Below are positions 1,160 through 60,956 of a stretch of 64,000 nt of DNA, one piece after another. The translations under genes and the position numbers were made by a program. The notes below the pieces were generated by a model. It was not told the DNA's origin. It saw nothing but the letters and a program-made list of their open reading frames with translations, and made no database searches. This DNA is from Escallonia rubra (lineage: Eukaryota; Streptophyta; Magnoliopsida; Escalloniales; Escalloniaceae). The stretch lies in the NCBI GenBank assembly GCA_033065855.1, contig JAVXUO010001947.1:62001-126000 (forward strand). Reading direction: 5' to 3'. Each line of letters opens with the position of its first letter. Positions within the stretch are counted from its first letter, which is position 1.

Positions 1160-2125
1160 ATGGATCTAAAGCACATAGCCCCTGAAGCCTACGACCCATC
1201 ACAAGTTCAAGCTTACGACCAATCAACACAAGCTTACTACGATTACCACCTCCAATACCAACAACAATACAATCAACAGCAGCAACAGCAATACCCATAT
1301 TACCCTCAAGATTATGCGAATGCCTATCGGCAACCACCCCAGCAGGCACCCACTTCGATTCACCCTCCCGGGGTTCCAGTCCCACCTGAGCCGGCCCATT
1401 TCGTTGGCCAAGAACAAGGGTTTCATCAAGCCCATGTACAGAGTCAGCAGGTTCCTTATTACCGACCACCGCAATTGGACCCTGCTGCGGCGGTGGCTCA
1501 GTTCCCAGGAAATGCGGGGTATGATCAAGGGCAGCAGTGGCAGGGGACTCGTGGAGGGTTTGGACTGGTATGAATGGATTAGCTGATTGACTCGTGGTGT
1601 GTAATTTGCTGCTTGATTTTTGGAAACCCTGTTTTTATAATTTTTTTCCCCTTTGACTCATTTTGTGAATCTTTAGGATAGAATCCGAATGCATGGACGT
1701 TGAATTGAACTGAGATAGCGATTACATATCAAATGAGTATTTGTTTGAGAAGTAAAAGGAAGGCACAAAGAATGAGCAAGCTCAATAAATACATTCCAAT
1801 TTCAAATACAATACATATGCAAATTGTCCAAGGGGAAAAAAATATGAAATGGAGGAGTTTTTTTTAGGGTTTTATTTATTGTGTTTTGATTACTTCCGGT
1901 TGTTTGACATAATTTTGATTGATTAGTGTCATGGTCCTATAATTTTCTGGGTACAGCAAATGCGAGTGTTTTATATGTATGTGTGTGTGTGTATATATAT
2001 ATATACACACACACACACACGACTGTCATTTTTTTCACCGTCCGCAACATAGTGTAGCGGACGGTAAATTATCGTCCGCAACATAATGTAGCGGACGGCC
2101 AAATCGCGCTAGCAATGGATCACGA

Positions 2126-2169
<44 letters not shown>

Positions 2170-16679: not shown

Positions 16680-17225
16680 CTTTTAGTGACAGATATATCC
16701 CGTCGCTAAAAGTCTGTTGCTTAAAGTTAAGACTGTTAGAGACGAATATTTTAGAAACGGAATGTTTTGTCGCGAAAGGCTAGTTTTAGCAACGGAACGC
16801 TAAAAGTTTGTTGCTTAAAGTTAAGACTGTTAGCGACGGATATTTTAGAAACGGAATGTTCCGTCGCAAAAGGCTTGTTTTAGCAACGGAACGCTAAAAG
16901 TCCGTTGCTTAAAGTTAAGACTTTAAGTGACGGATATTTTAGCAACGGAATGTTCCGTCACGAAAGGCTAGTTTTAGCGACAGACTTTTTAGCAACGAAA
17001 CGTATCCGTTGCTAAAAAGTTTCTACAAAATTTTTAAAAAAATTAAGTGGCCGAAAATAGGAAATTTTTTAAAATCTTTTAGCAACGGAATAACCCCGTC
17101 GGTCAAAATCCGTCGGTAAATATTTTTAAACCGTCGGTAAAAGTTTTTAGCGACAGACTTTTACCGACTGTTGTTTCCGTCTTTGAAACTACCTTTTAGC
17201 AATGAATTTGTGTCCGTCGCTAAAT
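16680..17225. repeat. Right subterminal repeats of the CACTA relic
   Basis: At least ten copies, in both orientations, of words like TTTTAGCAACGGAA, TCCGTTGCTAAAA and CCGTCGCTAAA, some in tandem units of about 95 bp (16725, 16820, 16910). This is the usual arrangement of transposase-binding sites next to a CACTA terminus. Confidence 0.8.
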
Positions 17226-35881: not shown

Positions 35882-36305
35882 TGCCTAAGTGTGTTCCTGT
35901 AGTCTAGTTATTGTGTACCCAAATGGCATTGTAAATTATGGACTCCAATTTGTTTTGGTGTAAGCAGATGGGGACTCTAGGTTGTTTTGATGCAATGTGA
36001 CTGAAATGAATTACTTTTATGCAATGGGAAGTGAAATGCATGGTTAAATGCAGTACATACACAAAAGACATAACTCCATGAGCAATGACACCATCAAACA
36101 ACATAAAAAAGGCACCACCTGTATTACCAATAACAAGCTACCAATTTATTACATAAAAAAACTCATTATGTTTTTAAAGTTTCAATCAAGCTCATGATTA
36201 CCAATCAAGGTACCAAGTGATTACATAAAGACACAATAGAAAACATAAAGTTCTAATCACACTCAACTACCAACATATCCATCTCATTTCATAAACACAT
36301 ATCCA

Positions 36306-37930
36306 TCAATTCTTATGATTCCTCTTCTTGGTAGGGGTAACAACTTGACTTCTTGTAAGAACCGTAGTGGGAGTGGCAACTTGACTTCTTGTCACCACCC
36401 TAGTAGCTGTAGGAGAGTGAGTAGTAGCAAGAACACTGGTAGTGGGAGGCTTGGATGGAGTAGCAGCCTTGCTTCTTGTCACTTCCCTAGCAGGAGGAGA
36501 GCTATCAAGAACACATATTCTGGAACTAACAGACTTGGCTGGAGTTGCAGCCTTGCTTCTTGTCACTACCCTAGTAGGAGAAGAGCTATCAAGAACACTG
36601 GTACTGGAACTTGCACATTTGGATGGAGTTGCAGCCTGGCTTCTTGTCACTACCCTAGCAGGAGTAGCAAGAGGTGTAGGGGTTGTAGGAGTAACAGCAG
36701 CAGGAACACTGGCAGACTTGGATGAGGTAGCATCTTGGCACCCTGCACCCACAGCCAATCTTGCATTTGCCTTTTTCCTCTTAAGTATGCCCTTCCTCAA
36801 TGCTGCAGATTCTTGGCCAGTCACCTTTACAACCATCTGTTCATTGTGTTGTTCTTGAGCAGCCACATCATTTGTATCTACTTGATCATTTCTTGCTCCC
36901 ATCTTCTGTGCTCTTGTTGCTCTTGCATTTTTCATCTTCTGTGCAATCAAGCTCTTCCTCCTGGAAGCTTTCTTCTATGTTCTTTCACTGCCATCCACAT
37001 TCATAGTACTTGGGCTTTGATGTGTATTAACCTGTTTAAAGATGCCAAAATACAAGGGAAGTTACCATACTGTAAACAAATTGGACAGGGTAACAGTCAT
37101 TGACCTAAGAAAAACAAACTCACAGATAAATCCTGAGTTTTTCCTTCATGCCTTTGACCTGCATCAACATCCTGAGTTCTTCCTTCATTTCTCTTGACCT
37201 ATTTATAGATGTCAAAGTACATGTGAAGTTAACCCTTCAACATTGTTATTGCATCAACACATATGTGAAGTTAACGTATTGTAAGATATACTCACAGGTA
37301 ACTTCTCTGGCCTCCATGCTTGTCTTTGTCTTGCATCAACACATATGGTAGGTACATTGTCCACATTTGATTCAGCCATAGCAGTTGCTTTTTGGGGTAC
37401 ACTTCCCTGTCCCTTGCATGTTCTTTGGTTGTGGCCATACTTCCCACACTTACCACAAGTCATTCTCACTCTCTTTTTACTTAGCTTAGTAGCACCTTTA
37501 GGGTCATCTTCATCCCTTCTCCTAACCTTTCTTGGCCTTCCTAGTTGAGTATGATGAATTGGGGGAAGAAGTTTAGGCTTACCACTAGACTCCCAAAGGT
37601 CTGGACCATTGATTGGGTGGATGAGGTTCTCATATATCTTAATTTGAGTCTCTCTTTTGTAACAATCATGCACCCATTCCTCTGGTCTCATCCCTTTGTT
37701 TCTGCCATTTGCCTCATCAGAGTGTATGGCAGAAATAACATGAGGGCAAGGGATGCCACTGAGGTCCCATCTTCTACATGTACAAGTCCTATTTCTCAAA
37801 TTCACAACATATTGAGCACTAAAGGGACATCTAAGCTGGTACTAATATCCCCCGTTATAAGTGCTAATACACTCATTTGACCTAACCTTGTTCTGTTCAA
37901 CTATTTCATGAATATGAGGTGTATTTCTCC
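36306..37930 (-). pseudogene. C-terminal part of a MURA-like (MuDR) transposase
   Basis: Minus strand. 37930-37292 encodes the SWIM finger (CTCRRWDLSGIPCPH), then Arg/Lys-rich sequence and a CCHC zinc knuckle (CGKCGKYGHNQRTC), ending at a good donor (CCT|GTGAGT). A small exon (37197-37138) carries a duplicated EGRTQD/EGKTQD motif. The last exon (about 37030-36306) encodes a Thr/Ser/Ala-rich tail with five or six RVVTRSxxATPxK repeats. SWIM plus knuckle is the C-terminal order of plant MULE transposases; the DDE core and N-terminal domains are missing at the 37939 break. An in-frame TAA stands just before the SWIM finger. Confidence 0.75.
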
Positions 37931-37938
37931 CATTGTGC

Positions 37939-38219
37939 TTCTAGAGTGGCCAAACTGGTTTTAAAAAATTTTAAACAGGTACTTTTAGTGTTTGACAAAA
38001 AAAGAAAGTGTTTCAAACAACCCCAAAAAATGAAAAACATGTTTGACCAACAAAAGTACTAGATTACCTCATAAATTTTATAATATGATATTGAATGTCT
38101 TCTTTTCTTTTGAGACTTAACTATCAACATGTAACCAAATAGAAAGAAAGAGTGAGCAAAATATTTTGATATATTTATTGTAGAAAGAAAAGGTGAACAA
38201 ATATTATGATATATATATA
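37939..38219 (+). repeat. Duplicated promoter of host gene 2, copy B left part
   Basis: Matches 34470-34748 closely. It is interrupted at 38219/38220 by the large MULE and resumes at 50085. The junction lies in a TATATATA stretch. Confidence 0.9.
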
Positions 38220-38506
38220 GGGAGCTGATCCGTTGAGAGCGTTAGCAAAATAGGAGAAGTTGCAAGCGCGATCTGACCGTCCATCTTGAAAGATGGACGG
38301 CCCAGATCGCGCCTTTTTCGCAAACTGTCAGTCGTCCGCCATAATGTATGGCGGATGGGGTTTTTTACCTTTTTGCCCCTCCGCGCCTGTCCGCTACACT
38401 GTGTGGCGGAGGACATTAAAGTCCTGATGGGAGACAGCAAAAAGACGTCCGCGATACAGTGTAGCGGACGTCCCCTAGGCTGACACCTGTCAGGGCCTGT
38501 CCCGTC
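38220..38506 (+). repeat. Left terminal inverted repeat of the large MULE
   Basis: 287 bp matching the reverse complement of 49797-50084 with about 12 substitutions and a short T-run length change (about 96% identity). It contains three GTCCGC-type palindromes (near 38334, 38388 and 38449). The pairing inner bases differ between them. Confidence 0.95.
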
Positions 38507-38554
38507 AGTTCTTTTCGGCAATGACGATTTTCTTGTCCTTATCTGTCACGTCAA

Positions 38555-38650
38555 CAGTGTCCGCTATACAGTGTAGCGGACGTTATAGCCATCCGCGATA
38601 CTGTATCACGGACGTAATAGCCATCCGCGATACTGTATTGCGGACGTTCA
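38555..38650. repeat. Three hairpin motifs just inside the left TIR
   Basis: GTCCGCTATACAGTGTAGCGGAC, then two ATCCGCGATACTGTATyrCGGAC copies spaced about 37 bp, joined by GTWATAGCC. Same outer stem as the TIR and array hairpins. Confidence 0.85.
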
Positions 38651-39266
38651 ATATACTTTCAAACGACAGTAACTACGACACTCTTCTCCACTCTTTCTAC
38701 TCACAAAATTTTTCAGCGGCGTTGGCAAGCAGATCGGCGCAATTCCATCTTAAGAACACCTTTAATACCCTAAATCGATCACGTAAGTTCACAAAATCTA
38801 TACTTTTTTTTGTTTGTAATCGATAGTTGTGATGAATATTGCATTTTATATATGTATGTTTTTGTTCATGTGCAAGCGTTTGTAAAATCTGATTCCGTAT
38901 ATGTATATATATCTATTATACATATGAGTATATATGCTAACATTGTATACATTTTTTGCATGTGCTTGCGTTATATGTAATATGCATGTGCTAGCTTTTG
39001 TTTGTAATCGATAGTTGTGATGAATATTGCGTTTTATATATTTATGTTTTTGTTCATGTGCTAGCGTTTGTAAAATCCGATTTCGTATATGTATATATAT
39101 ATCTATTATACATATGAGTACATATGCTAACATTGTATGCATCATGCATGTGCTTGCGTTATATGTATTATGCATGTGCTAGCGTCATATTTTTGCGAGC
39201 GATTATCAAAATCCAAAACGTAAAATCCAAACTGAGAAGGTTTTTCCATAATTTCAGTTGCAAAAA

Positions 39267-42200
39267 ATGAAATTTAACCCTGGACCAGAAGACACATCCG
39301 TGTTATACGACCAAGACAACCATATCAGTACGCTCATATGGGATGGTGGAGTAAGATACATTATTTATCAACTCTGAAAATTCTTACGAACGTTGAATAT
39401 ACCGTTTGTTTTGCTTAAATTGTATTTATTAATTCGTAGGAAATAGAACTTCTCAACACCGTAGAAATATCTCGCGAGTTCACATCGTGGAAACTGAACA
39501 CCGCCCAGAAGAGGATACTGCGTGGAATTGGGTTTGGGATTTTCACGCATGGGCAGATATTTCAACAGCTTGACCGAGCCTTGATAGGTGCCCTTGTTGA
39601 GAGGTGGACCCGCTCAGAGAGATGACAATTACCCTAGAAGATATAGGGTTCATCTTAGGGTTGCCGGTGACGGGGCGACCGGTAATTGCTCATCCGTCAA
39701 AAGCAACGAATAAGAGAACCGCTAGGAACTTCTTAACTTCGATACCCCATGATCAATTTAGCAGTGGTGGTATCAAGTTGAAGTGGTTGGTAGATACCTA
39801 CGGGGTTTTGCCGGAAAACTATATGGGCCGTGACCTTGTGCTGTACACACAAGCCTTCCTCTGGTGGGTGGTGGGGGTAATATTATTCCCAACGACGTCG
39901 AAGAACACGGTCAGCGTGAGATATTTACCGTTGTTGGGTAACCTCGCGGAGGTTGGAGATTATGCATGGGGTGCAGCGGTTCTTTCGTATCTGTACCGAG
40001 CATTGCACAAGGCAACGAGGCCCGACTCCAAAGCCATATGTGCATGTCTCTCGCTATTGCAGGTATATCATATAAATCATGTCTTCGTTATTGTTTTTTT
40101 TGTTTTTGCTTTTGTTGAATCGACGATAAAAATATAATTTGCCCATGTTCTCATGTGTGGTCTTATGAACACCTTGCTCCCGGTGCACCAACGCGTAGGG
40201 ATGGAACCGATAGAGTATGGCCTCGGTTGCGTGCTTGGGAGTACAGCCAGAAGAATAGCCACTACCGCAGGAGAGTCGATCCCCATCACAACATCACGTA
40301 CTATCGAGGGGAGTTCGACCGCCTATCTCCGGGCCAATTGCGTTGGGCACTGTACATACGTTTGGCGCGACGGGTAGAAGAGTCGTTCGTCTTCACGCTC
40401 TCCGGGTTGCAGCACACACCCCTCATCCACTTCGAGGTCGCAGAGTGGCAGCTGCCAAACCTAGCAATGCGCCATTTTAAGTTGGAGCAGGGTTTGCCAG
40501 CCGGTGCCCCAGATATGAGGGTTAACAGGGACCCACCGGATGTCGGGCGGTTTGGCAAGGCCAATGCGCAAGAATTGTGCGCGGCCGAACTAGAGCTCTG
40601 GACTTCTTGGCAGGACACACTGGCGGCCATCGTCTCGGAGCCGAACCCCGTTATCAGCATCGAACAGTACAATTAGTGGTACTACCGCATCACGCGGAGG
40701 AGAGTAGCCCAGTGAACTTTGAACGCGGGGAGAGGTATGCGCCTAGGGGTCAGATCGACGAGCGTATGGCATACAATCTCGTAAGTTGCCCAACCAGTCT
40801 GACTTGTCTTGAATGTGTTGAATATAAATGTCTGATTAAAGTTACTTATTTGTTATCTCTTTGGATGTAGGTTAATGCCTCGCTTGCATTCTTCCAGAAG
40901 TTGAGTGAGCGGAAGGATCTGATGAGCGCAATGGGCGAGGATCTTCACCAACAGGCTGCTGCACTGGCTTTAGGCTGCGGGAATTTTGTGCGACAAGCAT
41001 CGGGACAGTCTTCGGTCGACAGCCCGGGAATGGGTTATACGGGCGTCAGCCCGTATAACGTTGATCCCTCCGGGCAAGCTTCAGGGGTGAGCCAGGGAGT
41101 TGGTGGTCCCTCTGTACCGGGGATGGGACATGCTCAAGCGTCGTGGGCCGATTACAGCGGCCCGACCTTCAATTTGTTCCTGGAACCCCAACCCCTCTCT
41201 CAGAGTCAAGTCACGCAAGACTGGCCTTACGGTTTCAACGAGGCACTGCCCATTGTACCGTGGGCGGGACCACTTGGCGGCCCCGAAGGGCAATATCAGC
41301 CGGCGGAAGAAAATGGTCGGCGAGCAATATCAGCCGGCCGGGGCCCCCGAAGGCGATTATCAGCCGGCCGGGGCCCCCGAAGGGGATTATCAGTCGGCCG
41401 ATCCGTTGGTTGGAGGCCAATTTCTTCCGTTGCTCTTACCCCCCGGCGGAGGGCAAGAGCAACCGGTCGACCCCCGAGGGCAATATCCGAAAGGGCATCT
41501 AGCCAGGCCCCTGAAGCCGCATAAACATGACCTAATCCGAGCCCGTTATTTTAGCGGGCCCCCCCCTAGACAGAGCGTCGTATGACGTGGATCACCCGCA
41601 GGGCTTGGATTACAATGCCTCGTGGAACGAACTGTCCTCGCTGGCACCGAAAATTTGGTTAGACAACTTTGTCATCTCGCACTACGTGCAAATTCTGAGG
41701 CAAAGGGGTCGGGAGCAGCCTAACTACGGTCCGTGCATTTTTATCATCGATGCTTACTTTCATGGCATCCTAATACAAGAGTGGGGCGACTGGGACAAGG
41801 TGAGGAAGCAGGCGAGAAAGGGGAACGCCCAGCTCCAGTGGAGACCGTCTGCTAACCTGGAAACATATCTTGCTAGGGATAGTCCAGTGAGCGCAAGTGT
41901 GGCGGACGTGTTTCTAATCCCATTTATAGTGAATGCCCACTGGTTCTTGGTTTGCTATGAACCGGTAGCGAAGACCGTATCAGTCCTCGACAGTCTCTAC
42001 GATGATACCCCCGTGATGGGTGTGATTGAAATGTACCGAGGCTTAGGCCAGTTGGATGCCATGGTAAGATCATGTTTACTTCTTATTGTAACTTGCATAT
42101 TGTAGAACTGATTAATCTTATTATGTTTGCTATGTTTAACGTTTAATGTTTAATGCTTATTATGTTTCTCGCAGAATCTATTTGATGCCATGGTCAATAG

Positions 42201-42475
42201 GAAGCGTCGAGAGATACGACGTTTGTTCTCCGATTAAAGAGGAGTAGGCCCAAGCAACTTAATTTCTCGGACTGCGGCGTCTTCGTCTGCATGTACATGG
42301 ATTACATCTGTCGGACTGAGAGCCTCAAGAAGACCGTCTGGAGCCAAGAATGCATAAACTGCTTTAGGTATAGGATGGCTTGGCAAATTATCAATGGCCG
42401 GCCTAGAGCTATTAGATTTATAGTAAATCCGTGTAACGAGGGGGATCCCGCAGGGGCTGAGGGCCCCAATTGACA
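39267..42475 (+). pseudogene. Plant mobile domain (PMD) to Ulp1/C48 cysteine protease fusion gene
   Basis: Exons: 39267-39350 (MKFNPGPEDTSVLYDQDNHI), 39440-40062, about 40158-40780, 40871-42063, 42175-42475. The first three encode the PMD fold seen in MAIN-like proteins and in transposons (GFGIF...ALVERW, MTITLEDIGFILGLPVTG, LPLLGNL, YAWGAAVLSYLYRAL). A Gly/Pro/Gln-rich linker follows, with a duplicated GAPEGDYQ unit near 41340-41400. Then comes the Ulp1 core: His in NAHWFLVCYEP, Asp in VLDSLYDD and Cys in NFSDCGVFVCMYMDY, so the catalytic triad is visible. Damage seen: frameshifts near 39612, in the linker near 41320 and in the last exon, two TAGs where CAG fits near 40674-40710, and a weak acceptor (CTCATGTG) at exon 3. 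The gene starts 760 bp inside the left TIR. Confidence 0.85.
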
Positions 42476-42717
42476 ATGTTTGCTTATAATAACATTATAT
42501 TAACTTTTTTAATTGTCCTTATCGTTGAATCTTATCGTTGAATGCGATTGATGATTTCATTTGTGTTGACTGAGATATGATCGGCGTTGAATGCGATTGA
42601 TTTGATTCACTGATATCGTTGTGTTGTTGATCTGAGTGTTTGATTTGTTCTGTGTAATTTGCTTTGTGTCCAGGGGGAAACAAAGTGTAAAAACCAAGTG
42701 AGACTGTGTTTCTGCTT

Positions 42718-43605
42718 GACTGTCCGCTATATAGTATAGCGGACATAGATAGGGCCAAAAAAAAACTAAGTGTTGAGGACAAGACCTTCTGCTTGATTGT
42801 CCGCTATATAGTATAGCGGACATAGATAGTATAGCGACATAGATAGGGCAAAAAAAAAACTAAGTGTTGGGGACCCTTCCTTCTGCTTGAATGTCCGCTA
42901 TATCGTATAGCGGACATAGATAGGGCCGAAAAAAACTAAGTGTTGAGGACAAGACCTTCTGCTTGACTGTCCGCTATATAGTATAGCGGACATAGATAGG
43001 GCCAAAAAAAACTAAGTGTCGCTATATAGTATAACGGACATAGATAGGGCCAAAAAAAAACTAAGTGTTTGGGACCCTTCCTTCTGCTTGAATGTCCGCT
43101 ATATCGTATAGCGGACAAAGATAGGGCCGAAAAAAAACTAAGTGTTGAGGACAAGACCTTCTGTTTGACTGCCCGCTATATAGTATAGCGGGCATAGATA
43201 GGGCCAAAAAAAATTAAGTGTCGCTATATAGTATAGCGGACATAGATAGGGCAAAACAAAACTAAGTGTTGGGGACCCTTCCTTCTGCTTGAATGTCCGC
43301 TATATCGTCTCGCGGACATAGATAGGACCAAAAAAAAAACAAAGTGTTGGAGACTCTTCCTTCTGCTTGACTGTCCGCCATATAGTATCGCGGACATAGA
43401 TAGGACCAAAAAAAAACTAAGGGATAGTCTTCCTTCTGCTTGACTGTCCGCTATATAGTATAGCGGGCATATATATGGCCATAAACTTAGTGTTTGGGGA
43501 CTCTTTCTTCTTTCTGTTGTGCTGTCCGCTTTACTATATAGCGGACATGCATAGGACAAAAGAAAAACCAAGGTTTTGAAGGTCCGCTTTATAGTATGGC
43601 GGATG
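42718..43605. repeat. Hairpin satellite array 1 (about 75-90 bp units)
   Basis: About 13 units, each with a palindrome such as GTCCGCTATATAGTATAGCGGA, joined by CATAGATAGGGCC-(A)n-CTAAGTGTTG and a CTTCTGCTTGA spacer. Some units are shortened to half palindromes (43019, 43220). At 43170 and 43446 the outer stem reads CCCGC or GCGGGC; at 43170 both arms have changed together. The array starts about 240 bp after the protease gene's stop. Confidence 0.92.
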
Positions 43606-43731
43606 TAGTTACAAACATAAATTCCCAACATTTTACATGCTTCAAAAGACGAGATTCGCTAATTAGAATGACATGTGGATAAGTGCCAGTTGGAATGAAA
43701 TCCTAACATGCAGTAAGAAGAGATATATATA

Positions 43732-44166
43732 TCACTCTTCATTTGACATATACTCATCAGATAAGTACTGATCATTGGTTAAAATATTGTTTCTCTCGTT
43801 TGATTTGAGGTGCCTCCCACTAGCCTCGGCCATTTCTTCCGCAAGTTGAAGCATGTAAAATCGTTTTCTACGCAACAACATTAGGTTATTCTCCATACGA
43901 ATTCGGCGCACAACTTTCTTACACTGCTTAACATTACGCCTCGACATACTAAGTGAACGACGTTGCGGCACAGGTGCCCGCAGCATGGTGAGATCTTGGT
44001 GTAGTGCTTCTGATTCCTTAACTCGATATGCCCATTCTCTTCGTAAATCACAATAATATTCTCTCGGATCCGTGTACTTCACTTCTTTGTAGTCGTCGTT
44101 CCTTTCACACAACAACCGCACAGTCTGACGTCCCCGCAGACTAGAACTCCCAGGAACTCCTGCCAT
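43732..44166 (-). CDS. Intact small coiled-coil protein of the MULE (144 aa), unknown function
   Basis: ATG at 44166, stop at 43732, no interruption. The protein is basic and helix-forming, with a probable coiled coil from the CDLRREWAYRVKESEALHQD region through VVRRIRMENNLMLLRRKRFY and LAEEMAEASG. It has an acidic tail (YLSDEYMSNEE). It is paralogous to the ORF at 44552-44983 on the opposite strand (shared LRxEWxYRxxExExLxxD, RxNxx, RIRxEN and LxxMA positions, about 30% identity by eye). No known domain recognised. It could be a transposition accessory or DNA-binding helix protein like MURB-type second proteins of MuDR, but that is analogy only. It is the only MULE gene here with an undamaged frame. 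Confidence 0.65.
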   Translation of the reverse strand: MAGVPGSSSLRGRQTVRLLCERNDDYKEVKYTDPREYYCDLRREWAYRVKESEALHQDLTMLRAPVPQRRSLSMSRRNVKQCKKVVRRIRMENNLMLLRRKRFYMLQLAEEMAEASGRHLKSNERNNILTNDQYLSDEYMSNEE

Positions 44167-44349
44167 TTAACTTAGGCGGTTCTAATGCGATGAGCATGGC
44201 TAACATATATAAATAAGCCCACATACACATACACAATATATTGGTGTGATAGCTACACAATAGTCTGCCCATCTCTGGTGACAAGACAAGTCTATGGACA
44301 TTGAAGATGACAATAGTTTGAGACAATAACATGCCCGTGTCATAAAGTT

Positions 44350-44400
44350 GACAAGTCTTTGGTGACAAGACAAGTCTCTTTGGTGACAAGACAAGTCTCT
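44350..44400. repeat. Short tandem repeat between the divergent small ORFs
   Basis: Two to three copies of a 21-bp unit (TTTGGTGACAAGACAAGTCT), with a related CTGGTGACAAGACAAGTCT at 44275-44293. They lie in the putative bidirectional promoter. Confidence 0.7.
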
Positions 44401-44551
44401 AGTCTATTGCAGAGGCTTGTCACATCTCATAAAGTTGAACTTGTAGTATCTCGTAAAGTGGTCCCGTTTCAAAGTATATATAAGTACATGCATTGCACGA
44501 AGGGCAAATGGCATAGAGTGATATACTCCCAATTTCATAACAACTCTGAAA

Positions 44552-44983
44552 ATGTCATATACTCCACGAGATATTTTTGAAGCAATGGGTCGTTACTGGG
44601 CGGGCGAAGATGAATTTCACTATTCTTTGCGTCCAAGTTTGCGTTACTGATCAAGCTATGTTAATACATTACGTGCAGAATGGTCTTATCGGATGAATGA
44701 ATATGAGGTCTTAGTAGCTGATTCACGGCGCATGAATATACCCATACCTCGACAAAAGGCAATCAACATGCCTCGAATTACGCCCATGGAGCTTGAAAGG
44801 GCACTGCAACGAATACGTGAAGAAAATAATAGAATGAGAGTTCGTCAAAGTAGGCATAACTTACGTCGTATGGCACGTGATGCACATGAAGATGGCAACA
44901 ACAATGAAGCACAAGTATACTTGAACATGAGCTTCGAACTAGGATCTGTTTCCGATGCTCCAGTTTCAGATGAAGATGACTGA
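44552..44983 (+). pseudogene. Paralogous small coiled-coil ORF of the MULE, one internal stop
   Basis: ATG at 44552 (MSYTPRDIFEAMGRYW) and stop at 44981-44983, with a single internal TGA at about 44648 that replaces a codon in an otherwise continuous frame (probably CGA). The second half reads LRAEWSYRMNEYEVLVADSR...LERALQRIREENNRMRVRQS...LRRMARDA and ends with an acidic tail (SDAPVSDEDD). It matches the minus-strand ORF at 43732-44166 in order and spacing. The two are divergent, 385 bp apart, with short tandem repeats (TTTGGTGACAAGACAAGTCTC) between them that may lie in a shared promoter. Confidence 0.6.
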
Positions 44984-45004
44984 AGATCGAGTTCTTCTAA
45001 GGCT

Positions 45005-45388
45005 ATAAGGCCTCCGCTTAGGCCGGGGTTCGGGAAGGTCGGAACTAAGTGTCTGGTTCGTGCCAACCATTTTCTGGTCCAAGTTGCAAACAATGATCTG
45101 CACTACTATGATGTGAGATCCTCATCTGTGCACCTTTTGTTTGTGTGTGGGTTTCCGTGGTGCATGGATCTGGATAGCACAGCAAAAAAAACTTTCTGTT
45201 GTGCCGTCCGCTAGATAGTATAGTGGACAGCCCCGCAGAATACATGACCAAGCAAAAAGGTGCACAACTGAGGATCTTACGTCATAGTGGTGCAGATCAT
45301 TGTCTGCAACGTGGACCAAAAAATGGTTGGCACGAACCAGACACTTAGTTCCGACCTTCCCGAACCCCGGCCTAAGCGGAGGCCTTAT
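45005..45388. repeat. Large inverted repeat, 137-bp arms, about 110-bp loop
   Basis: Arm 45005-45141 and the reverse complement of arm 45250-45388 are about 94% identical (ATAAGGCCTCCGCTTAGGCC at the outer ends, GTGCACCTTTT at the inner ends). The loop holds one GTCCGCTAGATAGTATAGTGGAC palindrome and another variant directly abuts the right arm at 45389. A transcript through it would make a long double-stranded RNA. Confidence 0.9.
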
Positions 45389-45414
45389 GTCCGCTATATA
45401 GTAGAGCTAGACGT

Positions 45415-45520
45415 GGTAGCGTAATGCAGTTTTAATAAATTGGCGCCCGAAGACTTATTTTAGCGACATTGTAGCATAATGCTGTTTTAATAAATTGGCG
45501 CTCGAAGACTTGTTTTGACG
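45415..45520. repeat. Two-copy tandem repeat, about 60 bp
   Basis: TAGCGTAATGCAGTTTTAATAAATTGGCGC...GAAGACTTATTTT is followed by TAGCATAATGCTGTTTTAATAAATTGGCGCTCGAAGACTTGTTTT. No other role seen. Confidence 0.75.
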
Positions 45521-45689
45521 ACAGAATCAACAATCTCAATATCGATAAACAATAAATAACGTACGATTCACAATCAACGATCTCAATATATCGAGGGAAT
45601 CTCAAACGGCACAATTAAGCACAATTAAGCGAGAAAAAACTGCAAAAAACATAATGAACAAGAACATAAATTTTTTTATTAATAATAAA

Positions 45690-46171
45690 TTAAAGTTCAC
45701 ATTGGGGGAAATAAATTTTTTCACAAGCGTTCTGATCAAAGATTACAACTTGAAAATCCCACCACCCAAGGTGTTCAAACATTACAAAGTCCCCGAGTTC
45801 GAGGCCGTGCTGGCGCACGAAGACGTTCCAACCCTCTGCGAATTGCTTTTTTTTGGGGTCGGCCGGGCTTCAGCTTGATTTCAACCTGCCATGCCCCCTT
45901 GCGGCTATATACTCTTGCACTGTCATGAATTGTTGTAAATTGAATGGTCAAGGCTTCCGGTATGTCCTAACAAACACAAAACAAAAAATAGGTTAGTTTT
46001 TAACCAAAAGATCAAACTTTTAACACACGAAAATACAGAGAAAGAGGGATGGCCTACAAGTTCATTCTCAAATCCTGACATCATGACTTTGAAAAAGTGT
46101 TTGCCTGCCAGGTGCAAGTTGCCAATAAAATCGTAGGTGGTCTCCGATCCAGAAGCCATCGGGGTCGGCAT
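45690..46171 (-). pseudogene. B3 DNA-binding-domain protein carried by the MULE
   Basis: Minus strand: exon 1 46171-46058 (38 codons, MPTPMASGSETTYDF...GKHFFKVMMSGFENEL), a 91-bp phase-0 intron, exon 2 45966-45690 (DIPEALTIQF...GAWQVEIKL, then GWNVFVRQHGLELGDFVMFE and VVIFDQNACEK). This is the full order of the plant B3 fold: the N-terminal FFKVM...GFxxEL strand, W-x-V, GWxxFVxxHxLxxGDF and the FDxxxCEK end. The domain makes up almost the whole of the about 129-residue protein, as in small REM-type B3 proteins. An A8 run at about 45845-45852 shifts the frame once. If start 46159 were used, the protein would lose four residues. B3 proteins are plant-specific DNA-binding transcription factors; finding one inside TIRs is unusual. 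Confidence 0.8.
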
Positions 46172-46324
46172 TGAGGGGAGGACCGTGGTGTCGCCGGAGT
46201 TGTGGGTCACCGGAGATGTGGCTCGCCGTAGATGGGGTAGCGGCTTGGGTTAGATGTTCGAGACAGAGAGAGTGCTCTCAGCGGACTGATAACAGCTGAT
46301 TGCCCGATTTGATTAATATATATA

Positions 46325-46700
46325 ATAGGATAGAGTTATCCGCTACATTGTATAGCGGACATAAAAGAAGACCAAAAGTTTTTCTGCGATGCCGTCCGCT
46401 ACATTATATAGCGGACATAGAAGAAAACCAAAAGTTATTCTGCGATGCTGTCCGCTACATTGTATAGCGGACATAAAAGAAGACCAAAAGTTTTTCTGCG
46501 ATGATGTCCGCTACATTGTATAGCGGACATAAAAGAAGAACAAAAGTTTGTCTGCGATGACGTCCGCTATATTGTATAGCGGACATAAATGAAGACCAAA
46601 AGTTTTTTGCCATAATGTCCGCTTCATTGTATAGGGGACTTAAAATAACCCCAAAAAATTAGGGCTCTGCATATCCGTCCGCTTTATTGTATAACACGGA
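46325..46700. repeat. Hairpin satellite array 2 (about 57-bp units)
   Basis: Seven units of the form TCCGCTACATTGTATAGCGGAC-ATAAAAGAAGACCAAAAGTTTTTCTGCGATG. The last two are degenerate. It lies just beyond the 3' end of the transposase gene, mirroring array 1, which lies beyond the 3' end of the protease gene. Confidence 0.92.
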
Positions 46701-46832
46701 CGGGGCTGACAAAGAAAAAAAAAACAACTTAAGACTTTAGATTTGATTTGATGGCCTCTCATAGGTCCATCAGATAAAAAATTCCAGTATTCGGTCGAAA
46801 AATTATTACAAATATCAAACTTATACAAAAAA

Positions 46833-49104
46833 TTAAAGGTCCACTGCAGCTTGTTCGTCCTCATCTTCGGCGTCATCTTCTTCCCCGTCTTGCAAACCCC
46901 CTGAACTTATCCCCAGTGCCTTGTAATGGTTCTGCTTGTCGTGGTCGGTCATTTTGTTGCACAATGCACACCTTCGCAGCTTTTTAGGTTGAGTTGCCGT
47001 TTCAATAGAGCTTTTCATCCGCATAGATCTCTTGCGGCCTTTCGTTTACGATATAATTGGATCCAACGGCCGGATATCATTGTCGTCTTCCTCCCCCGGC
47101 TCGTCATCTTCTGCCCCGTCGTAGGCTCGGTGTCAACTAGATTGGTGACGGAAGCTGTTTCCAACTGGTCGACGATGGGCTCTTACTGCTGAGCTACCTC
47201 GAGGAGATGTTTATAACCGACCATTGTAGCAGCAACCTTTACGGACAAACGTGTGAACAAACGTCTCTGATTCTTCAAAGTCAGTATACGGGTGCTCCGG
47301 AAAGGCAATGGTACCGTGCAACCTGTTTGCACCTTTCATCCACCGTGGCAAGACGTATTGATCGGGGATTGTCCTGATATTCTTCTGGGTGAAAAATCAC
47401 AGAATGTGTCTACAAAGGATGCCATGGAACTCAAACTTCTTGCAAACACATGTCATCGAGTCCGTCAATGTGTCGTGACTCACCGTATACATTCCGCGCA
47501 GCTTCTTAGGAACGAGGTCATTCACAAGCGAATAAACCTTGTACTCACGCGTAGACTTTTCTGCCACCTTGTTTATACAGTATCGTTCCGATTTCTACAG
47601 CTTTACTTGGTATAGCAAGAAGATCTCATTCGTATAGACTTTGGCACCATTCAGCTCCAGCGGGGTCTCAAGCAACCTTCTCCTCTGTTTGTACGTGGTT
47701 GCAAAGTCTGCAGCCCTTTCTTTCACGAACAACGACGCAATCGCTTTCTGTGCGAATGTGACGAAACTCTTCAAATTGGTAGCGGTACCCACGTAACTAT
47801 CGAACGTGGCATTCATAGATTCACTCCTGACCGTCGTTTTCATGCCCGCAGAAAAATGCCTCCTCGTGTAAACGCCAATCCATTGCTCTTTGAGCTCATA
47901 CAAGTGCTGGAGCCACCCGTTGTCTTGCAATGAGTAATCCTCAACAATCTTTTCATACCTCTCCTCAAATTCCTCAATCGTTAACGACTTGCTAACGCAC
48001 GTGTCAAAATCCTGTTTAAAGTTTGGAAACTTTGCGTACACGTGATGCAAACGTTCGGGGTATTTGTTGCTTATGTGCCAAGTGCACAAGTTGTGTCGAG
48101 TATCTGGGAAAACGGTGGCAATAGCCTTCTTCATTGCCAAATCTTGATCGGTGATGATTACGTTGGGTGCTTTGAAGTTCATGGCTTCCAGCCACGCCCT
48201 AAACAACCATTCAAAAGAACTCTCGCTCTCGTCCCTTAACAAGGCGAACCCGAACATGATGGAGTGATAATGATGATTGACCCCCGTGAAAGGGGCAAAC
48301 GGCATCGAGTACTTGTTGGTACGGTATGTGGTGTCGAAAGTCACGACATCCCCAAAATGCTTATAAGCAAGCCTCGAACGACCGTCGACCCAAAAAAATT
48401 GTGCTAACTCGATGCTCGTCGTCAAGTTTATAATCGAAGGTAAACTGCGGGTTCTCCATCTGCATCCGCTTCAATAGGCTCATTGTGGCTTGAGCATCAT
48501 TGATGTCATACACGGCTCGACTATGGGTTCAGACCGCGTTACAAACGTCTGTTGTGTTAAAGTTTAAATTTTGAATTCCCCCGGCCTGTTCAGCAAGAAC
48601 ATTAATCACGTCGGTAGGTCCTAGCCGCGCATCGCTCATTGTGTGAATTAGGCTCCTCGCGACCTTACCCATCTTCTTGTGTTGATGCATCTGACTCACC
48701 TTAGAAGGGGTTACTAACGGGTGATTGTGTGCCAGTTCCAGGCTGCTAATAAGCCAATGATCTTGCTTGGCTTTATAGCTTATGAACATCTTGACCTGGC
48801 AATTCATTCGCGCAAAGAAGTCCCGTCTTCTGCGCGAATATCCTATTTCGTCATCACTGTCATCGTTGCCTACACTTGTCTCATTTTGCACTGGGTTTCT
48901 GCCCTTATGGCACTCGTATAAGCGAGAGCATATCTTTTTCGTGACGTTGCTCGTTCTTGAAGTCTTTATTCTAATGCCAAATCCAACCCTCAATGAATAC
49001 GCTCGGAAACATTCTCCAGCTTCCTCCAATGTTTGAAAGGTTCGTCTTAGATACAGATCACTAGCATCTACGGGGGTGTTGGAGCTCGACACGAAATCAG
49101 ACAT
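46833..49104 (-). pseudogene. FAR1/FHY3-type MULE transposase
   Basis: ATG at 49104 (minus strand), stop near 46833, apparently without introns. In order: FAR1 DNA-binding domain (FQTLEEAGECFRAYSLRVGFGI...CQVKMFISYK...LELAHNHPLVTP), the MULE catalytic domain (FFWVDGRSRLAYKHFGDVVTFD, THYRTNK-like TTYRTNKY, NVIITDQDLAMKKAI, and HRxxC-type NLCTWHI), then a SWIM finger (CVCKKFEFHGILCRHIL) and a Lys-rich, then acidic tail with a CALCNKMTDHDK zinc-knuckle-like motif. Catalytic Asp residues (FDTTY, ITDQD) are visible. Disruptions: in-frame stops after CNAV, after YQVKL, after CRHIL and in the tail, and one frameshift before AQFFWVDG. Most stops could come from CAG, CAA or CGA. It starts about 690 bp inside the right TIR. 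Confidence 0.88.
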
Positions 49105-49796
49105 TGTGAAACAAGACCTATGTAGAAATATAGACTACACTTAACAATCAAATGACATTTTCAACTGAAAATATTACCTAAAAATTATCTTGACGAATAG
49201 ACCAATTTAAGATGACAAATATACCATATACATAATCTCAAAAGTCTCCAATTTTGCTAATTATAGATTTATTGAACATAACAAATTAAAATTACTAAGA
49301 TAAATAGACAAATTCATCATGCCAAAATACAACAAACGTATCTCAAAAAATTCGAATTTAAATAGGATAGATGTGCCGAAGTTAGCGCTCTTCAAAAAAA
49401 TCAAAATTAACTACAATAAACTTATTTAAAGTTAACAAATTAATTTCTAGAACATCACAAGTTGATGAATAGAGTGACAAATTTCTAGAACATCATCAAA
49501 AATCTGTACTTTTTTGTCCTTCAAAAAAATATATACTTCATCAGTCAATCTGCCCAGAAAATATTTGAGATCAGAAACTAACCTTGCTTGACTGAAGATT
49601 GAAGCAAGTGTTACTCGAAGCTTGAGGGTAGCCGAAAATGGAAGCAAGTGAATCCGAAGGAGAAGAAAATTTTACCGAAAGAGCTGAGAATTAGGGAACC
49701 CTGGGGTATATGGGAAGTATTGTCCGCGATACTGTATAGCGGAAATTATTCCCGACACTAACACGTGCAGAAATAACAGACCTGACATCCCTTTCG

Positions 49797-50084
49797 ACGG
49801 GACAGGCCCTGACAGGTGTCAGCTTAGGGGACGTCTGCTACACTGTATCGCGGACGTCTTTTTACTGTCTCCCATCAGGACTTTAATGTCCTCCGCTACA
49901 CAGTGTAGCGGACAGGCGCGGAGGGGCAAAAAGGTAAAAAAAAACCCGTCCGCCATACAGTATGGCGGACGACTGACAGTTTGCGAAAAAAGCGCGATCT
50001 GGGCCATCCATTTTTCAGGATGGACGGTCAGATCGTGCTTGCAACTTCTCCTATTTTGCTAACGCTCTCAACGGATCAGCTCCC
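49797..50084 (-). repeat. Right terminal inverted repeat of the large MULE
   Basis: Inverse of 38220-38506. A further palindrome (GTCCGCGATACTGTATAGCGGA) lies just inside at about 49722-49744. Confidence 0.95.
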
Positions 50085-50518
50085 ATATATATATATATAT
50101 ATATGGAATATGATAATAATCAAAAGGTGAAAAATAACCAAAATTTATATATTCTTATTTCAAAATTTTACTAAAAGACAAATATTGCGAATTGGTAATT
50201 TTTTTGATGCCCTTTTGGTCATTTTCACATTAGAATTGTTTTATGCACTTTTATCTAACCTCTTACATTCAGCTGATTATACTAAAAAAATATTAAAACA
50301 AACTTATTTTGTTTCAATCAAAAAATGATTTTCTAGAATCAGTTCTACATGAACTCAAAGAAAAAAGAAAAACAAGAGTGCCAAAAAACATTTTATACAC
50401 AAAAAGCAGTAAAAAATTGAAAAACCTCTTACGCCACGCGAATTTGACTACCTACACTCCCCCATTTTCTCCCTCCTCCTGGAGTAATCATCACCTCTGT
50501 GCAACAAACGAAACATAA
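50085..50518 (+). promoter_or_regulatory. Promoter/leader of host gene 2, copy B right part
   Basis: Matches 34749-35177. It begins in the (TA)n stretch next to the MULE and ends 50 bp before the first in-frame ATG of the nucleotidyltransferase gene. The gene's proximal promoter is therefore only about 480 bp long before MULE sequence begins. No TATA box can be singled out in the AT-rich sequence. Confidence 0.75.
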
Positions 50519-59367: not shown

Positions 59368-60956
59368 TATACATATGTGTGTGTATGGAAGCTGATCCGT
59401 TGATAGCGCTGGAAACTTAATTAAGTTGCCAACGCATCCAAACCGTCCATCTCAGCACTTTGAACGGCCAAGATGGGTTATGTTTCAGCAAATTTCAGTC
59501 ATCCGCCAGATTATCTAACAGACAGGTCATCTGACGTTATTGCCCCCACAAGCAGATGTTCTTAGGTAGCGTTTGAAATCACTTAAGTTTCCAGTTTTTT
59601 TCTCCAGTTTTGTAAACCGGAGAAAAACGCGTTTGACACACAATTTTTCCTTTTTTTTTTGCTTTAGTTTTGAAAACCAGTTTTTAAAACAGAGTTGTTT
59701 TTGAAAACTCCCATTTTGGAGTTTTGGGTTTCCAGTTTTGGTTTTTGTTTTGAGACAGCTGCTACCGCCACCACAAAACCCCCCCCCCCCCCCCCGGGGC
59801 GCCCCTGCCACCGCCACCAAAGAAAAAACTCAAAATAAAAATTAGGTAATCAAACACCGAAAATAAAAAATTCAAAATAAAAATCAAACACCCATTTGTT
59901 TTTGTAAAAAATATAAACTAACTGGTTTTGGTTTTTTAAGTGATTTCAAACAGACCCTAATTGTTCGTCTTCCTTATTCAGCTTCCAGACAAACAAAATG
60001 TTCTTTAGGTTTCTCCCTCAACTAAGTAATTACTTCACAAACTCCATGGATCAAAACCAAAGTAAATTGAAATCAAAAGATATGATTCATATGTTAATTT
60101 GGGTTTTAGATTTTTGAAAATGATGAAAATAATTGTGCAATACAATACCGCAATTAATACATATTTAATAATTACCTATATACACCATTTTGAAACTTAT
60201 TTACCCGCATACCACACTTTTAGAAATCGCTGTTTGAAACCACGTTTTCAAGGTAAAAATCGTTATTTCAAACAACACCTTGAAAACGTGGTTTCAAACA
60301 ACGATTTCTACTTTAAGGTAAAAATCAAGCGCTGCAGCGCCAAAATCGTGGTTTCAAACAGCGATTTCCAAAAGTGTGGTATGCCAAAATGTTGTATATT
60401 GGTAATTAAGTATTAAATATGTATTAATTCTCATACAATACCTAACACCACCGTCATCGATCACCACCATCTAAATCATCGCTGCCGCCACGAACCACCA
60501 CCATCCAAACTCACGCTACCCCCTAACCATTACTATCTAACTGCCGCAGCCCCAAACCACCACCACTAAAATTTTCGTTGCCCCAACCATAACCAATCAA
60601 ACCGCTAATGCCGACCCACCATTAAACACGTTAAACTGCCATCACCCCGCCACCACGATCTAAATCGTCCATGCCCCCAACATGGACGATTGAACGTAAT
60701 TGTGCAATACAATACCCACGATCTAAATCATCCACGTTTTTAGGAGATACTGGAAGGTGGGTGGCAGCGTTGTCGTGGATCTAAGATATGAAAAGTATTG
60801 CTTAATGTGGGGGTGATAAGATCTGAAAATGTTTGTTTTTATATTTCTTGCCATGCCTCTGGCATCTTTCAGCCTTCTTACATTTTCATTTTGCAGATAC
60901 TATTGATTACTCGTTTTCTTCAGCATGAACATCATCATGGCCGGTCAATTAACCAA
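50568..60956 (+). CDS. MEE44: Nucleotidyltransferase (non-canonical poly(A) polymerase fold), MEE44-like; 3' end outside window
   Basis: Visible exons: 50568-51440, 52770-53306, 53380-53499, 53574-55571, 55669-55785, 55950-56132, 56256-56318, 57020-57091, 57181-57438, 58386-58505, 60897-60956; all introns are phase 0 with GT-AG borders. That is 1467 residues so far. Residues 1-291 hold a conserved N-terminal region (DSLTSHISLYHSSS, LKWFSSLTVHQRQSY, NGHGFFLVLPDIPS). A basic nuclear-signal-like patch (ASRRKKRKGR) is in exon 2, and exon 4 is long, acidic then Ser/Pro-rich. The catalytic core begins in exon 6: GS at 1251-1252, DVD at 1263/1265, and the third Asp in VRIDISF at 1391. Exons 10-11 start the PAP-associated helical domain. 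The next expected exon was not found before 64000. Start could be ATG 50637 (MDSKQLVD) instead. An alternative 3-base-shifted acceptor (CAGCAG) precedes exon 4. Symbol is from recollected similarity to Arabidopsis MEE44. Confidence 0.85.
51441..52769 (+). other. Intron 1 of the nucleotidyltransferase gene
   Basis: 1.33 kb, clean GT-AG. AT-rich, with a T-run and a G-rich stretch at 52024-52062; no element recognised. Confidence 0.8.
57640..57995 (-). mobile_element. Possible tRNA-derived SINE in intron 9
   Basis: On the minus strand, about 57975-57920, TAGCTTTACGGG (box-A-like, two deviations) is followed 43 nt on by GGTTCAAGCC, an exact match to the pol III box B consensus GGTTCAANCC. The body would extend leftward to about 57640. 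It sits in the intron between exons 9 and 10, which the flanking reading frame skips. No clear tail or target duplication was seen, so this is tentative. The 80-codon plus-strand frame here has an ordinary-looking composition but is outside the host gene's reading path. Confidence 0.35.
58660..58692 (+). repeat. T-run followed by a G-run
   Basis: A poly-T then poly-G homopolymer tract in intron 10; the length may be unreliable. Confidence 0.85.
58770..59235 (-). mobile_element. Ty3-type LTR fragment fossil in intron 10
   Basis: On the minus strand the sequence ends in TGGGTTCGGGTCATGGCA and shares the AGCTCATTCC...GGTGACGA type of internal words with the LTR copies at 25733-26460 and 31383-30658. 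Diverged, truncated, no coding sequence. Confidence 0.45.
59310..59362. repeat. (TA)n-(CA)n microsatellite
   Basis: A TA tract followed by a CA tract of about 18 repeats, directly left of a TIR fragment of the large MULE family. Confidence 0.9.
59388..59545. mobile_element. Diverged single TIR of the large-MULE family
   Basis: GGAAGCTGATCCGTTGATAG...ACCGTCCATCTCAGCACTTTGAACGGCC...TTTCAGTCATCCGCCAGA follows the order of words in the 38220 TIR (GGAGCTGATCCGTTGAGAG, ACCGTCCATCTTGAAAGATGGACGGCC, TGTCAGTCGTCCGCCATA). Only one end is present. It adjoins an AT/CA microsatellite, like the full element. Confidence 0.75.
59565..59962. mobile_element. MITE with about 24-bp TIRs (about 400 bp)
   Basis: The left end TTAGGTAGCGTTTGAAATCA and the inverse of the right end TTAGGGTCTGTTTGAAATCA match in 17 of 20 positions; inner bases (CTTAA) also pair. 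A C/G run lies at 59779-59799. A non-autonomous DNA element within intron 10; superfamily not decided (hAT- or PIF/Harbinger-like). Confidence 0.65.
60125..60450. repeat. Foldback element, about 150-bp arms
   Basis: The left arm (GCATACCACACTTTTAGAAA, TCGCTGTTTGAAACCACG...) pairs with the right arm (CGTGGTTTCAAACAGCGATT, AAGTGTGGTATGCC). Inner smaller palindromes (GAAAACGTGGTTTCAAACAA, GCGCTGCAGCGC) lie between. The outer word AATTGTGCAATACAATACC recurs at about 60697, which suggests a larger element or local duplication up to about 60760. Confidence 0.7.
60451..60760. other. C-rich low-complexity block in intron 10
   Basis: CCACCAC/ACCACCATC words, like the block at 33600-34080. It is probably the interior of a non-autonomous transposon. 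No coding sequence. Confidence 0.45.

Follow-up and report, generated by a model that had tools for sequence, protein, structure and literature searches.

A mutated five-gene MULE of Escallonia rubra with a recurrent 21-bp palindrome, and a possible anti-silencing role for its accessory genes

Introduction

Do the accessory genes of a plant Mutator-like element (MULE) serve the element itself and, if so, through which DNA sites? The question is raised by an 11.9-kb element at positions 38220–50084 of a 64,000-nucleotide stretch of Escallonia rubra DNA (GenBank assembly GCA_033065855.1, contig JAVXUO010001947.1, positions 62,001 to 126,000 of the forward strand), hereafter the window. A single pair of terminal inverted repeats (TIRs) encloses a PMD-Ulp1 fusion gene, two small open reading frames (ORFs), a B3 gene and a transposase gene, along with 28 copies of a 21-bp palindrome. 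The best reading of the locus is a mutated, inactivated copy of a TA-microsatellite-targeting MULE with a Jittery/FAR1-type transposase. The explanation that we favor, at slightly short of an even chance, is that an accessory protein of the element bound the palindromes, jointly activating the genes and opposing silencing, in the manner of the VANC proteins.

The Element and Its Target Site

The sequence-only reading of this locus described inverted ends of about 287 bp enclosing PMD, Ulp1, B3 and FAR1-transposase coding regions and two small ORFs, all within one multi-gene MULE. This description is borne out. The TIRs, of 287 and 289 bp, are 95.2% identical across 289 alignment columns, the domains are recognized by Pfam, and the 25 longest of the 94 inverted-repeat pairs in 42474–46830 include no TIR-like boundary of the B3 gene or the small ORFs. 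The layout is as follows.

38209–38219, no strand: TA microsatellite touching the left end of the element.
38220–38506, plus strand: left TIR, starting with GGGAGCTGATCCGTTG; a 47-bp imperfect palindrome at 38266–38312 and 21-bp palindromes at 38335, 38390 and 38448.
38560–38644, no strand: left subterminal palindromes (38560, 38592, 38624), upstream of PMD-Ulp1.
39267–42473, plus strand: intron-bearing PMD-Ulp1 fusion gene; by eye, stops and frame changes number about four, and some of the latter could be introns that went unrecognized.
42702–43603, plus strand: array 1, 12 palindromes in tandem units mostly 48, 77 and 94 bp apart, lying between PMD-Ulp1 and small ORF 1, whose 3′ ends converge on it.
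43732–44166, minus strand: small ORF 1, 144 residues, intact; predicted helical hairpin with helices at 34–61 and 79–116.
44585–44983, plus strand: small ORF 2, paralogous to small ORF 1 and transcribed away from it; interrupted close to its start by one in-frame stop.
45005–45388, no strand: foldback with 134-bp arms, 94% complementary, and a 116-bp loop holding one palindrome (45207).
45690–46159, minus strand: B3 gene; exon 46159–46058, intron 46057–45967, exon 45966–45690; one frameshift, in a poly-A run.
46339–46725, plus strand: array 2, five clear palindromes (56-bp units) and further degenerate copies, located 3′ of the transposase gene and immediately 5′ of B3.
46833–49104, minus strand: transposase gene encoding FAR1, MULE and SWIM domains; broken by a frameshift near 48470 and by no fewer than four in-frame stops.
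49723–49743, no strand: right subterminal palindrome, upstream of the transposase gene.
49796–50084, minus strand: right TIR, 95% identical to the left TIR, with 21-bp palindromes at 49834, 49892 and 49949.
50085–50104, no strand: TA microsatellite touching the right end of the element.

The five genes thus read rightward, leftward, rightward, leftward and leftward, and the symmetry that had been claimed for their arrangement holds only loosely. Membership among the MULEs follows from the transposase domain PF10551 (3e-33) and the long TIRs. The FAR1 (2.2e-14) and SWIM (1.4e-5) domains lie N-terminally and C-terminally, respectively, and the TIR length falls within the 39–292 bp of the Jittery/FAR1 group, as tabulated in PMC6446971; that group is tabulated with a single ORF, and five genes are present here.

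The element is flanked by the direct repeat ATATATATA(TA), of 9–11 bp. Because both flanks are TA repeats, the target duplication has no firm length. TA tracts of at least four repeats number 17 in the window and cover 0.35% of it; one touches each end of the element.

The 21-bp Palindrome

The palindrome has the form TCCGCnAyA...TrTnGCGGA. Its 28 copies are distributed as three in the left TIR, three in the left subterminal segment, 12 in array 1, one in the middle, five in array 2, one in the right subterminal segment and three in the right TIR. A scan of the whole window, allowing at most two arm mismatches and demanding at least 7 of 10 symmetric pairs, returned 31 sites: these 28, two more, at 2041 and 2075, and a degenerate copy at 59502, which was removed ahead of the position-conservation and symmetric-pairing counts. 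Clear copies outside the element occur only in a small related remnant, the first of two related fragments in the window:

2024–2128, minus strand: short remnant with two palindromes, between microsatellites.
59387–59546, plus strand: TIR fragment, 71% identical over 124 alignment columns, following a TA/CA repeat; its first palindrome is degenerate.

Outside its palindromes, the remnant matches the TIR over 21 columns with a score of 30, which was reached by none of 1000 shuffles. A TA tract touches its right side, and mixed TG/TA/CA repeats lie beside its left. For the TIR fragment, a terminus scan allowing four mismatches gave no second end.

The strict form TCCGC-N(7-15)-GCGGA has 24 matches in the window, against 0.09 expected. 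Among the 25 unique sites, the best-conserved positions are TCCGC, A7, A9, T13, T15 and GCGGA, and position 6 is variable; entropy is lower in the palindromes than in the spacers, partly by construction, as the sites were picked for palindrome similarity. The element has 47 copies of the half-site TCCGCNAYA (shuffled mean 0.62, maximum 4, in 200 shuffles); the four outside it all lie in the remnant at 2041–2095. Only one of the 47 lies in a coding span, though such spans, introns included, make up 6,875 of the 11,865 bp. Where forward and reverse half-sites pair within −40 to +60 bp, 19 of 21 pairs have the identical 12-bp offset.

Is the palindrome conserved in its own right, or is it carried along by duplication? 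Three left-TIR sites were compared with four representative internal sites. In the 12 pairs, the palindromes agree at 15–18 of 21 positions and the flanks at 8–17 of 40, against a flank background with a mean of 11.6 and a 95th percentile of 16, which one pair exceeds. Within the internal arrays, pairwise comparison of 12 representative sites finds flanks in common at 16–26 of 40 positions. Mere array homology is therefore rejected as the account of the palindromes, since the TIR and array copies mostly lack common flanks. That the palindrome is conserved without its flanks suggests that it was itself under selection, the simplest role being that of a putative dimer-binding site.

CpG Content

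Methylated plant transposons lose CpG through deamination. The observed/expected (o/e) CpG ratio is 1.00 in the element, 0.55 in the left flank and 0.54 in the right flank. In 600-bp windows, the mean is 1.00 inside (n = 19) and 0.57 outside (n = 85), with a Mann–Whitney p of 5e-9 that is optimistic, neighboring windows being non-independent. Windows matched for GC give 1.01 (n = 14) versus 0.57 (n = 29, possibly including windows that straddle an end), and removal of the palindromes leaves the element at 0.96. Since CpG loss marks methylated transposons, it seems that the element's lineage was little methylated before this copy was made. Alternatively, the high CpG content might mean that the element arrived recently from a lineage whose habits differed. 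The TIRs differ by 10 transitions and two transversions; by our own reading of the contexts, four of the 10 transitions are at CpG sites, which fits methylation of this copy after insertion.

At 36000–37841, 378 bp from the element, lies a MuDR-type transposase remnant on the minus strand (SWIM 8.5e-9, and a zinc knuckle below cutoff). It has two CpG in 1,842 bp, an o/e of 0.03, and stop-to-stop frames of 195 and 222 codons are still open in it. Elsewhere in the window, a CpG-rich 94-bp tandem repeat lies at 16704–16978, and the 600-bp window from 16801 has an o/e of 1.67.

The Genes

Pfam recognizes PMD (1.7e-34 and 9.7e-12) and, in the second exon, Peptidase_C48/Ulp1 (3.8e-6); the first Ulp1 piece scores 0.0074, below cutoff. 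Still legible in the Ulp1 region are H (NAHW), D (VLDS), and Q and C (QLNFSDCG), which we take to be the catalytic residues. The PMD matches DUF7745 (1.7e-4) and DUF1985 (0.014; 15.8 bits versus a cutoff of 35.1) only weakly, below the cutoffs. Searched against PDB sequences, the PMD exon has no match and the first Ulp1 piece has weak matches to SENP2 and SENP1 only (best 0.071). A 188-bp tandem duplication (38808–39183, 92%) lies immediately 5′ of the PMD-Ulp1 start codon.

The B3 exons were drawn by eye from GT/AG sites and B3 similarity. The domain scores 8.4e-9 across one frameshift and passes the family cutoff only in that form; the second piece alone gives 1.8e-6 and 28.2 bits, slightly under the cutoff of 30.1, and the first alone nothing. 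In PDB sequences, its matches are weak, to At1g16640 (E 0.021) and VRN1 (E 0.034). The sole PDB match of the FAR1 piece of the transposase is an unrelated isomerase (0.11). Pattern searches for relatives of the transposase gave three viral and 13 bacterial or archaeal contig stretches, none of them confirmed, as expected for a plant element.

The two small ORFs, which had been read as paralogues, are indeed 33% identical over 78 residues (BLASTP 4e-14). The proportions of synonymous (pS, 0.77) and nonsynonymous (pN, 0.46) differences between them are near saturation and suggestive at most. An AlphaFold model of small ORF 1, from a two-sequence alignment, has a mean predicted local distance difference test score of 71, with 79–91 in ten-residue blocks from residues 31 to 120; Foldseek found nothing below E 1 with this model. 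For the small ORFs, Pfam has no family that reaches its cutoff (the best is FAM167, E 0.016), NCBIfam has no match and the best PHROGs score is 0.042; small ORF 1, the one of the two searched against PDB sequences, has no match there at E up to 1. The promoter region from which the pair diverges holds a tandem repeat of GACAAGTCTTTGGTGACAA, at 44350–44400, unrelated to the 21-bp palindrome. The foldback between small ORF 2 and B3, in which all eight arm differences are in the inner half, is a possible miniature inverted-repeat transposable element, inverted duplication or source of hairpin RNA.

Lesions counted by eye come to about four in PMD-Ulp1, none in small ORF 1, one each in small ORF 2 and B3, and at least five in the transposase gene. 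This copy is dead, since every gene is broken but small ORF 1, the only one open from ATG to stop. From these small counts, we infer that decay per codon is no further advanced in B3 and the small ORFs than in the transposase gene, so that they do not look longer dead.

A Proposed Role for the Palindromes, and Alternatives

We propose that the 21-bp palindrome may be the dimer-binding site of an accessory protein, as follows. The likeliest binders would be PMD-Ulp1, as an architectural counterpart of the Ulp1-bearing VANCs, and B3, which has a DNA-binding domain; the FAR1 domain of the transposase is a further candidate. The protein would bind palindromes where PMD-Ulp1 and the transposase gene have their TIR promoters, and also array 2, just upstream of B3, and array 1, between the convergent gene ends. 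Once bound, it may open the whole element, so that the genes would be turned on together and host methylation kept off, as VANC does for VANDALs. The Ulp1 moiety might strip SUMO at the bound site, and it is tempting to speculate that the small proteins are dimerizing partners. Other copies of the element would presumably share this design. DUF1985 is a domain of VANC (PMC5735166), and some VANCs carry Ulp1 (PMC13317346). The further step, that a Jittery-type lineage evolved sequence-specific anti-silencing independently of VANDAL/VANC, with PMD-Ulp1 or B3 acting on the palindrome, and so stayed long unmethylated with its full CpG content, is possible if rather doubtful.

Several observations weigh against this proposal. 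The case comes from one dead copy. The VANC21 motif is 9 bp long, and the string "palindrom" is absent from PMC5735166; the match of PMD to DUF1985 is non-significant. The half-site consensus was derived from the very sites later counted. Certain windows outside the element reach a CpG o/e of 0.9–1.67. The TIRs differ at 14 columns, three of them within palindromes, which make up 22% of the TIR. This is the chance level, so that no constraint on the palindromes after insertion is visible in this copy.

The palindromes of the TIRs would suit transposase binding equally well. They might be sites for the FAR1-type transposase, serving end pairing and self-regulation, with the accessory genes otherwise employed. 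Three palindromes in each TIR, together with subterminal ones at both ends, are what such a role would call for; FAR1 is annotated as a DNA-binding domain, and the related remnant of about 105 bp has little else yet keeps two palindromes. However, 18 of the 28 palindromes, those of the two tandem arrays and one internal site, are far from the ends and adjoin the accessory genes, and we regard this alternative as unlikely, if still deserving of serious weight.

Gene capture is frequent in MULEs, and B3 and the small ORFs might be roleless host gene fragments taken up in Pack-MULE style, with arrays that are neutral tandem duplications; the common flanks within the internal arrays show clearly that these grew by tandem duplication. 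Such an origin is nevertheless improbable. The palindrome recurs in the TIRs, mostly without common flanks. The small pair has diverged to its 33% identity with frames open or nearly so and with pS above pN, near saturation as these are, and B3 has plausible splice sites and one lesion per about 125 codons, no denser than in the transposase gene.

Nor is it at all probable that the central block of small ORFs and B3 is a later nested insertion, which is rejected: the block does have homologous, directly oriented arrays on its two sides and a foldback within it, but the 25 longest inverted-repeat pairs, of 94 in 42474–46830, include no TIR pair bounding it and only one pair that is not made of palindrome units, the 134-bp foldback; the genes of the block have a CpG o/e of 0.79–1.13, like the remaining element, and it holds one of the same 21-bp palindromes. 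RNA hairpins or terminators, suggested by the position of array 1 between convergent gene ends and by symmetric pairing at 211 of 250 positions (shuffled mean 201, reached by 9 of 5000 shuffles, relatedness not being controlled), have very little probability as the main role of the palindromes and are likewise rejected, since palindromes also stand in TIRs and upstream of genes, G-T and A-C departures both occur on one strand, and Rfam gives no match at gathering score across 38000–50300.

Returning to binding by an accessory protein, the sequence-only reading had suggested an undescribed MULE lineage with its own regulatory proteins. The palindrome arrays and the retained CpG lend indirect support to such proteins, whose binding we infer; one dead copy cannot define a lineage.

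Comparison with Known Systems

Part of what is seen here is already known: Ulp1 in Jittery-like MULEs of grape (PMC2528002), PMD in many MULE groups (PMC6446971), and TA targeting. The MuTAnT/AutoMuTAnT elements of Medicago and the SaTar MULEs of guayule and rice insert, like this element with its TA microsatellite at both ends, into TA microsatellites (PMC4486113, PMC5907723). MuTAnT is similar, too, in its Jittery-like transposase and in its long TIRs, which are built of modules able to fold back (PMC4486113). In contrast, AutoMuTAnT measures 4.9 kb, has a single ORF and differs in its TIR ends (PMC4486113): the MuTAnT end GGGGTTTGCTAGAACA is not found, and the element's ends are GGGAGCTGATCCGTTG. 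PMD-Ulp1, B3 and palindrome arrays were not seen in the available parts of the MuTAnT and SaTar accounts.

Jitvine-1 and Jitvine-2 of grape are Jittery-like and of comparable size, 11.9 and 14.4 kb, and some Jittery-like grape families have an Ulp1 region downstream of the transposase; in that account, as far as it was available, no TIR is listed for the two Jitvines, and B3, PMD and a small pair were not seen (PMC2528002). CitMule of citrus shares the FAR1-MULE-SWIM transposase domains and A/T-rich targets but is 6.9 kb, with one gene described, no long TIRs and 9-bp target site duplications (PMC4334395). PMD-bearing MULE groups resemble the element in their PMD gene, antisense to the transposase in several (PMC6446971, PMC5418596), and captured PMD has been speculated to serve anti-silencing (PMC5418596). 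The Jittery group of PMC6446971 is described with FAR1 and one ORF, without PMD, whereas this element carries it.

In the open-licence literature, our searches brought up no MULE with a B3 gene, and none with a small ORF pair, for which no aimed search was made. What appears new is the palindrome system, along with the small pair and the combination as a whole, the literature search having been aimed at neither palindromes nor small paired ORFs. In En/Spm, a repeated subterminal motif is bound by the element-encoded TNPA, which serves both transposition and de-silencing. That system differs from the present one in superfamily, protein and motif.

VANDAL/VANC and the KI-MULEs are likewise multi-gene MULEs with a short motif repeated in non-coding tandem arrays (PMC5735166, PMC10398659, PMC13317346). 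As in KI-MULEs (PMC2528002), Ulp1 is opposite in orientation to the transposase. In contrast, VANC has DUF1985 and KI-MULEs are non-TIR elements; this element has no significant DUF1985 match and has PMD instead, along with long TIRs, a transposase of FAR1 type and a motif that is different and palindromic. Counter-silencing by plant transposons is known from the VANCs of VANDALs. If the proposal is true, this would be a second MULE lineage, with another DNA motif and with PMD in place of DUF1985, and anti-silencing would have evolved either convergently or in very ancient times. A reason for the recurrence of PMD and Ulp1 among plant transposons would also suggest itself, and the long, easily recognized palindrome could be used as a test substrate. 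That CpG is kept here, next to a MULE stripped of it, points to an easy way of screening whole genomes for anti-silencing systems such as that of the VANDALs.

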